DNA from: Nocardioides ochotonae
GTDB taxonomy: Bacteria > Actinomycetota > Actinomycetes > Propionibacteriales > Nocardioidaceae
Length of the DNA: 64,000 nucleotides
Assembly (NCBI RefSeq): GCF_011420305.2
Contig: NZ_CP061769.1
Span: 2,839,001-2,903,000 of the forward strand
Direction of reading: 5' to 3'
The notes under the pieces are model-generated. The model did not search any database and was not told the origin of the DNA. It saw only the letters and a program-made list of their open reading frames with translations. Below, piece after piece: positions 13,907 to 23,430 of this stretch; the stretch's first letter is position 1; every line of letters starts with the position of its first letter. A program made the translations under genes and the position numbers.

Positions 13907-16435
13907 TCAGACGACGATGTTGACCAGCTTGGGCGCACGCACGACCACCTTGCGCACCGCGCGGCCGTCGATCGCACGGACCACGGCGGGGTCCGCCAGG
14001 GCCAGCTGCTCCAGGTCCGCCTCGGAGATGTCCGGGGCCACCTCCAGCCGGGCCTTGACCTTGCCCTGGATCTGCACGACCGCCGTGACGGTGTCCTCGA
14101 CCAGCAGCGCCGGGTCGACGCTCGGCCAGCCGGCGCGGGCGACGCTGGGCTCGTGGCCCAGGCGCTCCCACATCTCCTCGGCGGTGTACGGCGCGACGAG
14201 GGACAGCAGGATCGCCACCGCCTCGGTCGCCTCGCGCACCGCCGGGTCGGCCGGGCCACAGCCGGAGTCGATGGCCTTGCGGGTGAGGTTCACCAGCTCC
14301 ATCGTGCGCGCGACCATGACGTTGAACCGGTGGCTCTCGATCAGCTGGGTCGCGTCCGCGACGGTTCGGTGCACCGCACGGCGCAGCGCCAGGTCGCCGC
14401 CCTCGGCCGGGGTGCCGACCGGCGAGGTGACGTCGCCGGACAGGCGCCAGGCGCGCTGCAGGAACTTCACCGAGCCGCCGGGCGACAGGTCGGCCCAGTC
14501 GATGTCGTCCTCCGGCGGACCGGCGAACACCATCGTCAGGCGGACCGCGTCGACGCCGTAGGTGTCGATCATCTCGCCCAGGTTGACGCCGTTGCCCAGC
14601 GACTTGCTCATCGCCTTGCCACCGTTGATGACCTGGCCCTGGTTGAGCAGGGCGCTGAACGGCTCGACGAAGTCGACCATGCCCATGTCGTGCAGGACCT
14701 TGGTGAAGAAGCGGCTGTAGAGCAGGTGCAGGATCGCGTGCTCGACGCCGCCGACATACTGCGCCACCGGCATCCACTCGCGCGCCTTGGCGGGGTCGAA
14801 CGGGCCGTCCTCGTAGTGCGGGTCCAGGTAGCGCAGGTAGTACCAGGAGGAGTCGACGAAGGTGTCCATCGTGTCGCTGTCCCGCTTGGCGGGGCCACCG
14901 CACGAGGGGCACTCGACGTTGACCCAGTCCTCGGCCGCGGCCAGCGGCGAGGTGCCCTTGGGCTTCAGGTCGGCGCCCTTGAGGTTGTCGGGCAGCCGCA
15001 CCGGCAGCTGGTCCTCCGGCACCGGCACCTCACCGCACGAGTCGCAGTGCACGATCGGGATCGGCGCGCCCCAGAAGCGCTGGCGGCTCAGCAGCCAGTC
15101 GCGCAGCCGGAAGTTGACGGTGCCGGTCCCCCGGCCGTCGGCCTCCAGCTGCTCGATGATCCGGCTGATCCCGGCGGCCTTGTCGCTCAGCCCGTCCAGC
15201 GGGCCGGAGTTGACGTAGGTGCCGTCGCCGACGGTGGCGACGTAGGTCTCCTCGGGGTTGCCCTCGGCGCCCTCGACGTCGACCACGCGGCGTACCGGCA
15301 GGTCGAAGGTCTTCGCGAAGTCCAGGTCGCGCTGGTCGTGCGCGGGCACCGCCATGATCGCGCCGGTGCCGTAGTCGGCCAGCACGTAGTCGGAGGCCCA
15401 CACGGGGATCCGCTCGCCGTTGACCGGGTTGATCGCGGTGACGCCCAGGTCCAGACCGGTCTTGGGCCGGTCGGTCGCCAGCCGGTCGATGTCGGTCGCC
15501 TTGCGGACCTCCGCGAGGTACGCCGCCAGCGCGTCGGCCCGCTCGGGCGCGACGATCTCGGCGGCCAGCGCGGCGTCGGCCGCCACCACCATGAAGGTGG
15601 CGCCGTACAGCGTGTCCGGGCGGGTGGTGAACACCGTGACGGTGCGCGTCGAGCCGTCGGCCAGCTCGATGTCGAAGTCGACGTGCGCGCCCTCGGAGCG
15701 GCCGATCCAGTTGCGCTGCATGGCCAGCACCCGGTCCGGCCAGGTGCCCTTGAGCTGCTCCATGTCGTCGAGCAGCCGCTGGGCGTAGTCGGTGACCTTG
15801 AAGTACCACTGGTTCAGCTCGCGCTTGGTCACCTCGGCGCCGCAGCGCTCGCACATGCCCTGCACGACCTGCTCGTTGGCCAGCACCGTCTGGTCGTTCG
15901 GGCACCAGTTGACCGGGCTGTTCTTGCGGTAGGCCAGGCCCTGCTCGCGGAACTTCAGGAACAGCCACTGGGTCCAGCGGTAGTACTCCGGGTCGGAGGT
16001 GTGCAGCCGGTGCGACCAGTCGAAGGAGATCGCGTAGCGGCGGAAGGACTCCGCCTGGGTCTCGATGTTGGCGTAGGTGTAGACCGCCGGGTGCTCGTCG
16101 TTCTTGATCGCGGCGTTCTCGGCGGGCAGGCCGAAGGAGTCCCAGCCGATCGGGTTCAGCACGTCGAAGCCCTGCTGCCACCAGTAGCGCGCGACGACGT
16201 CGTGCAGCGCCATCACCTCGGCGTGACCCATGTGCAGGTCGCCGGAGGGGTAGGGGAACATCGTCAGCGCGTAGCGCTTCTCCGCGCCCTCGCCCGCCGA
16301 TCCGGCGCGGAACTGGTCGAGCTCCTCCCACACCGGGCGCCACTTGTCCTGGACCGCGGCGACGTCGTAGGTCACGGGCTCCTGCTCGGAGGTCTGGGCC
16401 GCGCTGGGCGTGGGGGTGGAGGTCTGCTCGCTCAT
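13907..16435 (-). CDS. leuS: Leucyl-tRNA synthetase
   Basis: Class I synthetase charging tRNA-Leu, 842 aa. The HIGH-type motif is [13 protein letters not shown] near residue 55 and the KMSKS-type loop is AMSKSLGNG near residue 608; the connective editing domain and anticodon domain ([16 protein letters not shown]) are in place. The start MSEQTSTPT has GAGAACGAG just upstream; the longer in-frame ATG at 16516 would place the attenuator inside the coding sequence. Expression is very likely controlled by the leader described at 16498-16594. Confidence 0.97.
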
Positions 16436-16497: not shown

Positions 16498-16523
16498 AAA
16501 AAAGCCCCTCGCGCACGAGGGGC
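16498..16523 (-). terminator. leuS attenuator terminator
   Basis: On the leuS strand, GCCCCTCG-loop TGCG-CGAGGGGC (16504-16523) followed by six T (16498-16503). A textbook intrinsic terminator placed between the leader peptide and leuS, about 60 nt before the leuS ATG. Confidence 0.88.
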
Positions 16524-16525
16524 GG

Positions 16526-16554
16526 CCGCGTCGGGTCGTGCTTGCTCGACGCGG
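16526..16554 (-). promoter_or_regulatory. leuS leader hairpin (pause/antiterminator partner)
   Basis: CCGCGTCG pairs perfectly with CGACGCGG (8 bp). The 5' arm begins immediately after the leader-peptide stop codon. Its loop contains GCACGA, complementary to TCGTGC in the terminator 5' arm and loop, so a ribosome stalled on the Leu codons would mask this stem and permit the alternative pairing. Confidence 0.75.
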
Positions 16555-16581
16555 CTAGCTAAGGAGCAGGGTCCTGCACAT
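16555..16581 (-). CDS. leuS leader peptide MCRTLLLS
   Basis: Eight-residue ORF whose codons 5-7 are CTG CTC CTT, three consecutive leucines, followed by AGC and TAG. An in-frame ATG three codons earlier (16590) would give [12 protein letters not shown] prefer the shorter form because TACCAT (16589-16594, minus strand) lies seven bases before the second ATG, a leaderless arrangement seen repeatedly in this window. The role, ribosome-mediated sensing of charged tRNA-Leu, is inferred from the hairpins that follow; attenuation by leader peptides is established for amino acid genes in actinobacteria. Confidence 0.82.
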
Positions 16582-16661
16582 GCCTGCCATGGTAACGCTC
16601 CGCACGAGCCGTTGCGCCACCGGAGAGGTCGCCGAGGGTCCCAGGCCGCCGGGCTCGGCGC

Positions 16662-23357: not shown

Positions 23358-23430
23358 TGGAGCTGAGGGGACTCGAACCCCTGACCCTCTGCATGCCATG
23401 CAGATGCGCTACCAGCTGCGCCACAGCCCC
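23358..23430 (-). tRNA. tRNA-Ala (GGC)
   Basis: A 73-nt cloverleaf on the minus strand: acceptor GGGGCTG/CAGCTCC with the alanine-identity G3-U70 wobble pair, D-arm GCGC/GCGC, anticodon stem TCTGC/GCAGA with loop ATGGCAT (anticodon GGC, reading GCC), T-arm AGGGG-TTCGAAT-CCCCT and discriminator A73. The CCA tail is not encoded. It lies between a YhhN-like gene and the histidine phosphatase-RsfS group. Confidence 0.96.

Follow-up and report, generated by a model that had tools for sequence, protein, structure and literature searches.

A predicted leucine-responsive leader upstream of leuS in Nocardioides ochotonae and its relatives in the actinobacteria

Introduction

In the 64,000-nt stretch of Nocardioides ochotonae DNA analyzed here (the window), leuS is preceded by a very short ORF with a run of Leu codons, followed directly by two hairpins and a T tract. 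The locus raises the question of whether this leader senses leucine through a translating ribosome and, if it does, how the position of the ribosome could reach a terminator ahead of leuS. The original prediction had answered with a complete attenuation logic, in which the loop of the first hairpin pairs with the terminator as an antiterminator. Attenuators of leuS were predicted earlier in two Streptomyces by Seliverstov et al. in 2005 (PMC1262725). An RNA-seq study of 2021 described LeuL2 (MRAVRLLLSEPR), a leaderless leader peptide upstream of leuS in S. lividans TK24 (PMC8079986).

Results

Anatomy of the leuS leader

The whole element, from the -10-like box through the T tract, occupies 16594-16498 on the minus strand, and its parts are listed in Table 1. 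The letters of the box, the 7-nt gap, the MCRTLLLS ORF, the hairpin, the terminator and the six T agreed to the base with their original description. The first G of the 5' arm of stem 1 is the final base of the TAG stop codon.

Table 1. Features of the leuS leader and its flanks in the window
Feature	Position	Strand	Remarks
-10-like box TACCAT (TAnnnT)	16589..16594	-	7 nt 5' of leader ATG
Leader ORF ATG TGC AGG ACC CTG CTC CTT AGC TAG, 8 codons, MCRTLLLS	16555..16581	-	probably leaderless
Control codons CTG CTC CTT (CTGCTCCTT)	16561..16569	-	conserved Leu codons
Stem 1, 5' arm (G)CCGCGTCG	16547..16555 (CCGCGTCG, 16554-16547)	-	covariation
Stem 1, 3' arm CGACGCGG(C)	16525..16533 (CGACGCGG, 16533-16526)	-	covariation
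Terminator hairpin GCCCCTCG (16523-16516), loop TGCG, CGAGGGGC (16511-16504)	16504..16523	-	sequence, alignment fold, terminator scan
Terminator T tract, six T	16498..16503	-	sequence
leuS, leucine--tRNA ligase, putative controlled gene	13907..16435, ATG at 16435	-	TIGR00396 leuS_bact, E 1e-282
AraC-like regulator gene, other flank of leader	ends ~16662	-	same strand as leuS

The terminator was the sole terminator-like site within 271 bases in an independent terminator scan. Folding of the leader gave a z of -2.8, with an equally good fold in 1 of 200 shuffles, and the structured pattern of the leader element matched the window once and none of 100 shuffles. The element upstream of leuS is no chance arrangement. 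We also considered a T-box or another trans-acting RNA or protein switch, given that aminoacyl-tRNA synthetase genes in Firmicutes are often under T-box control, as stated in PMC1262725. At Rfam gathering thresholds the leader had no match and no T-box was found in the window, whose only match was a tRNA (23358-23430); the leader is, moreover, too short for a T-box, making a switch of this kind extremely improbable.

Conservation of the leader in actinobacteria

Using LeuS as the query, we retrieved the leuS loci of relatives and compared 50 upstream regions. The element was present in 45 of these (41 by a regular expression and 4 by eye), each with a short LLL or LL peptide at the same position, and was missing from L005, L014, L016, L018 and L019. 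At least the last four of the regions lacking the leader carry a TATCCT box immediately 5' of leuS, as if the gene itself had turned leaderless there. Beyond the 50, the element was recovered in L083-L085 and not in L081, L086 or L087.

The upstream part of the common layout consists of TAnnnT, 6-7 nt, a start codon, a few codons, (Leu) Leu CTT, one codon and NAG; the downstream part consists of a CCG stem, about 1 nt, CCCCTC...GAGGGG and a T tract. Two forms were recognized. Where NAG is TAG, the peptide has eight residues and ends at stem 1; where it is CAG or GAG, the peptide continues as ...LLLxQPR or ...LLLxEPR to a TGA within stem 1. A single base divides the two forms, which makes the 8-residue peptide a minor variant.

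We built a covariance model from the family leaders, the window's leader among them. Across the 4.26-Mb genome of the window the model gave one match (77 bits, E 5e-17), and among 396 genomes sampled across the phylum it matched 32. A pattern scan of GTDB genomes matched at least 118 stretches, and 80 loci were taken from the matches listed. The next gene was leuS in 76 of these 80 listed loci, and in three others the stretch ended before the next gene. The remaining one, L111 (Knoellia), was rejected as a chance match to the pattern, with neither leuS nor a leader there. All 77 readable loci among the listed matches had TAnnnT 5' of the start codon, at a distance of 6 nt (55 loci) or 7 nt (22 loci). 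We looked for a sigma-70-like -35 element upstream of the leader peptide ORF and found none, so it is the -10-like box, with its conserved spacing, that supports the promoter call. The MCRTLLLS ORF is probably leaderless, and a short peptide with apparent leaderlessness is the norm among the predicted actinobacterial leuS leaders. The brevity and leaderlessness that had first seemed noteworthy are therefore family traits, already published for leuS of S. lividans (PMC8079986).

The element is known here from Nocardioides, Kribbella, Micromonospora, Actinoplanes, Intrasporangiaceae and others, and the candidate leuS leader is widespread in actinobacteria. In genomes that are probably Streptomyces (f6/g11), ATGCGTGCCGTACGC-CTTCTGCTT-AGCGAGCCGCGCTGA corresponds to MRAVRLLLSEPR, and LeuS is only ~39% identical to that of the window, so the leader precedes two types of LeuS. 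Two leuS genes of different type lie close together in the f4 family, the second with its own copy of the leader (L082 in G057, 278-362, MQPVALLLTWPR; L088 in G055, 505-587). Such pairs may represent a route by which a Streptomyces-type LeuS came to a place behind the same leader. The leuS model also matched leaders with Leu/Val/Ile runs in front of ilvB-like and leuA/cimA-like genes of distant actinobacterial lineages (L072, L074, L076, L077, L079 and L080), in which the layout of control codons, TAG, stem and terminator is similar.

Control codons, hairpins and spacing

The predicted leader ORF carries control codons for the relevant amino acid, and their identity is constrained. CTT was the last Leu codon in 44 of the 45 leaders of relatives, the penultimate one always being CTC or CTT, and CTT accounts for 7 of 2008 Leu codons (0.35%) in 30 leuS genes. 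Since the regular expression admitted any Leu codons, the preference is no artefact of selection for the 41 leaders that it yielded. Selective-charging theory expects attenuators to use rare or poorly charged isoacceptors (PMC1183508), and the near-invariant, very rare CTT offers a clear case for this codon-sensitivity theory. An outlying leuS leader (L071, 1501-1570) has one Leu codon only, the conserved CTT.

RNAalifold recovered stem 1 and the terminator from 37 aligned leaders. The positions forming the two hairpins were paired in 96% of cells, compared to 40-58% when slid, and seven pairs had changed on both sides. The covariation score was 0.231, against 0.132 for shuffles (0 of 500 as high) and at most 0.119 for slid pairs. 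One pair of stem 1 has A-U in place of G-C in seven sequences. The compensatory changes therefore mark stem 1 as a real RNA structure. The comparison strongly supports this part of the original prediction, a leucine-responsive leuS leader that combines a short, probably leaderless peptide with an intrinsic terminator.

CTT lies at a constant 5 nt from stem 1, and stem 1 at a constant ~1 nt from the terminator, while the length of the stem 1 loop varies widely. With the distances fixed and the loop free, information on the ribosome must run via the formation of stem 1, which probably relays the position of the ribosome to the terminator. The stop codon lies just before stem 1, inside it or slightly after it in the leaders of relatives and the listed loci, and in all of these a ribosome at the stop would cover the 5' arm of stem 1. 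The two hairpins are compatible and adjoin each other in every sequence compared.

Search for an antiterminator

In the classical attenuator of the original prediction, the stem 1 loop GCACGA would pair with TCGTGC of the terminator as an antiterminator. The letters for this pairing exist in the window, and the nearest relative (L002) has CCACGA and retains most of the six pairs; the pairing is, however, not conserved. We compared pairing energies between the loop and the 5' side of the terminator with those of shuffled loops, a test of equilibrium pairing only. The loop in the window was no better than shuffled loops (p 0.35), nor were those of 40 relatives (mean p 0.66, none at or below 0.05) or the 78 listed GTDB loci (mean p 0.60, two at or below 0.05). 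G-rich loop partners for CCCCTC of the terminator arm occurred at or below expectation in the listed GTDB loci.

We further applied equilibrium folding with a ribosome masking the middle Leu, the last Leu or the stop codon. The terminator formed with a mean probability of ~0.99 in every state and never below ~0.8 in any leader; in the window the value was ~1.0 at all modelled ribosome positions. Equilibrium folding reveals no switch, because no ribosome state takes the terminator below ~0.8. Neither the pairing energies nor the ribosome-masked folding yielded, anywhere in the family, an antiterminator that excludes the terminator via shared bases. These equilibrium tests thus give no sign of the usual mutually exclusive antiterminator, since the loop pairs no better than shuffles and the terminator always forms. 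The classical version is very unlikely on these results, and the complete attenuation logic of the original prediction, with its antiterminator pairing, is unsupported.

Other candidate pairings were rejected. Stem 1 could be extended across its boundary with the terminator, in the fashion of C. glutamicum ilvBNC, only where the spacer is TG or similar, which is not conserved (TG in 16 of the 78 listed GTDB loci). Pairings of the CTCCTT Leu run were examined by eye; that with GAGGGG of the terminator 3' arm has the wrong logic, and that with the Shine-Dalgarno site of leuS is not conserved in the spacers.

The thermodynamic models, displaying no switch, would also suit an ordinary short leaderless ORF and a constitutive terminator ahead of leuS, with no sensing of leucine. 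Such an arrangement is highly improbable, however, given that the spacing and the Leu codons, with the rare CTT among them, are kept across many actinobacterial families and in front of two LeuS types ~39% identical.

Discussion

Proposed mechanism

We consider it likely that leuS has here a leader of the actinobacterial type known from Streptomyces, one that responds to leucine by sensing the ribosome and would probably raise LeuRS output when leucine is short. Comparison among relatives establishes the predicted ORF with its rare control codon, stem 1 and the terminator, the constant spacing of these parts and their association with leuS. By its anatomy the leader resembles a ribosome-mediated attenuator, although the pairing and folding tests gave no exclusive antiterminator of the classical kind.

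We propose that transcription would start at or beside the ATG and that a ribosome would translate the 8-codon ORF. With ample charged tRNA-Leu, the ribosome would proceed to the stop codon, where it would occupy the 5' arm of stem 1, and transcription would end at the terminator, ahead of leuS. With scarce charged tRNA-Leu, chiefly of the isoacceptor that presumably decodes CTC and CTT, the ribosome would stall on the Leu codons, stem 1 would form right beside the terminator, and RNA polymerase would presumably read through into leuS. That formation of stem 1 means read-through is, in our judgment, an evenly balanced call, apart from our higher confidence in the leader as such.

Geometry inferred from standard ribosome footprints bears on this direction. 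A ribosome on the stop codon covers the 5' arm of stem 1 in both forms of the leader, one halted at either of the two earlier Leu codons leaves that arm mostly or wholly free, and one with CTT in the A site covers ~5 nt of stem 1. The original prediction had the Leu stall mask stem 1; on this geometry, it is the stop-codon ribosome that surely masks the stem, and a stall at either of the first two Leu codons would expose it largely or entirely. The stop placement favours the path from stall to stem 1 to read-through. It parallels the model for M. tuberculosis ilvB1, in which a ribosome at the stop codon is proposed to block the antiterminator; replacing the four regulatory codons of that leader with Ala abolished the response (PMC13236596).

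The same leader could instead work with the opposite sign, stem 1 aiding the terminator by stacking or polymerase pausing and a stall at CTT covering the base of stem 1 and giving read-through. This keeps the direction of the original prediction minus its antiterminator. It would account for CTT as the most conserved Leu codon, and as the only one kept in the L071 leader, for the ~5 nt of stem 1 covered when CTT is in the A site, and for two hairpins that are compatible and adjoining in every sequence. A stop-codon ribosome would, however, cover stem 1 too and allow leucine-replete read-through until release, and no stop is placed so as to leave stem 1 free. We regard the opposite sign as rather unlikely; the conserved CTT, whose stall covers the stem 1 base, fits it better and leaves room for it.

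We tentatively suggest an attenuator with no base-paired antiterminator, in which stem 1 might relay the ribosome position to the terminator by abutting it, through stacking or a steric effect within the exit channel of the polymerase, and not by sharing bases; genes resembling ilvB and leuA in distant actinobacterial lineages have the same layout in front of them. We see this as possible rather than probable. Counting against a leucine-responsive leader of leuS, mutation of candidate control codons in the ilvB and leuA leaders of S. coelicolor gave no classical attenuation, as cited in PMC1262725. With no textbook antiterminator found in the family, the 8-codon minimal system makes hairpin-to-terminator signalling directly testable.

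Comparison with known leaders

The window leader has an adjacent leuS, an ORF with a Leu run at a fixed distance from stem 1, and a hairpin with a U-tract terminator. Streptomyces-type leaders match the same covariance model, and by sequence the window leader belongs to the actinobacterial leuS leaders of the Streptomyces attenuator/LeuL2 type. The Streptomyces leuS attenuator, as presented in PMC1262725, is like that of the window in the gene, the leader ORF with Leu codons, the second hairpin and the terminator with a U tract. Its figure there labels an antiterminator hairpin, whereas we found no pairing exclusive with the terminator. LeuL2 is leaderless and has a hairpin and a U stretch (PMC8079986), like the probably leaderless leader of the window, and the family model finds the same peptide and the same stems before leuS (among L054-L067). 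Leaders of the LeuL2 type have GAG as the NAG codon before stem 1 and a stop inside the stem; the window peptide has TAG at that position and hence 8 aa.

More distant systems share parts of this design. The leaders of C. glutamicum ilvBNC and M. tuberculosis ilvB1 likewise have Leu/Val/Ile control codons, adjacent hairpins and a terminator (PMC11857589, PMC13236596). The antiterminator and terminator of ilvBNC share a GCC trinucleotide (PMC11857589), in contrast to the leuS family, which has no conserved shared bases, and the ilvB1 leader is longer, at 166 nt (PMC13236596). The LEU element before actinobacterial leuA also has a leader ORF with a Leu run, but forms a pseudoknot in which the Leu run pairs with the leuA Shine-Dalgarno site, with no terminator described for it in PMC1262725, unlike the window leader, which has one. 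Through the present comparison, a leader previously predicted for two Streptomyces is recognized in many actinobacterial families, and a covariance model for it becomes available.
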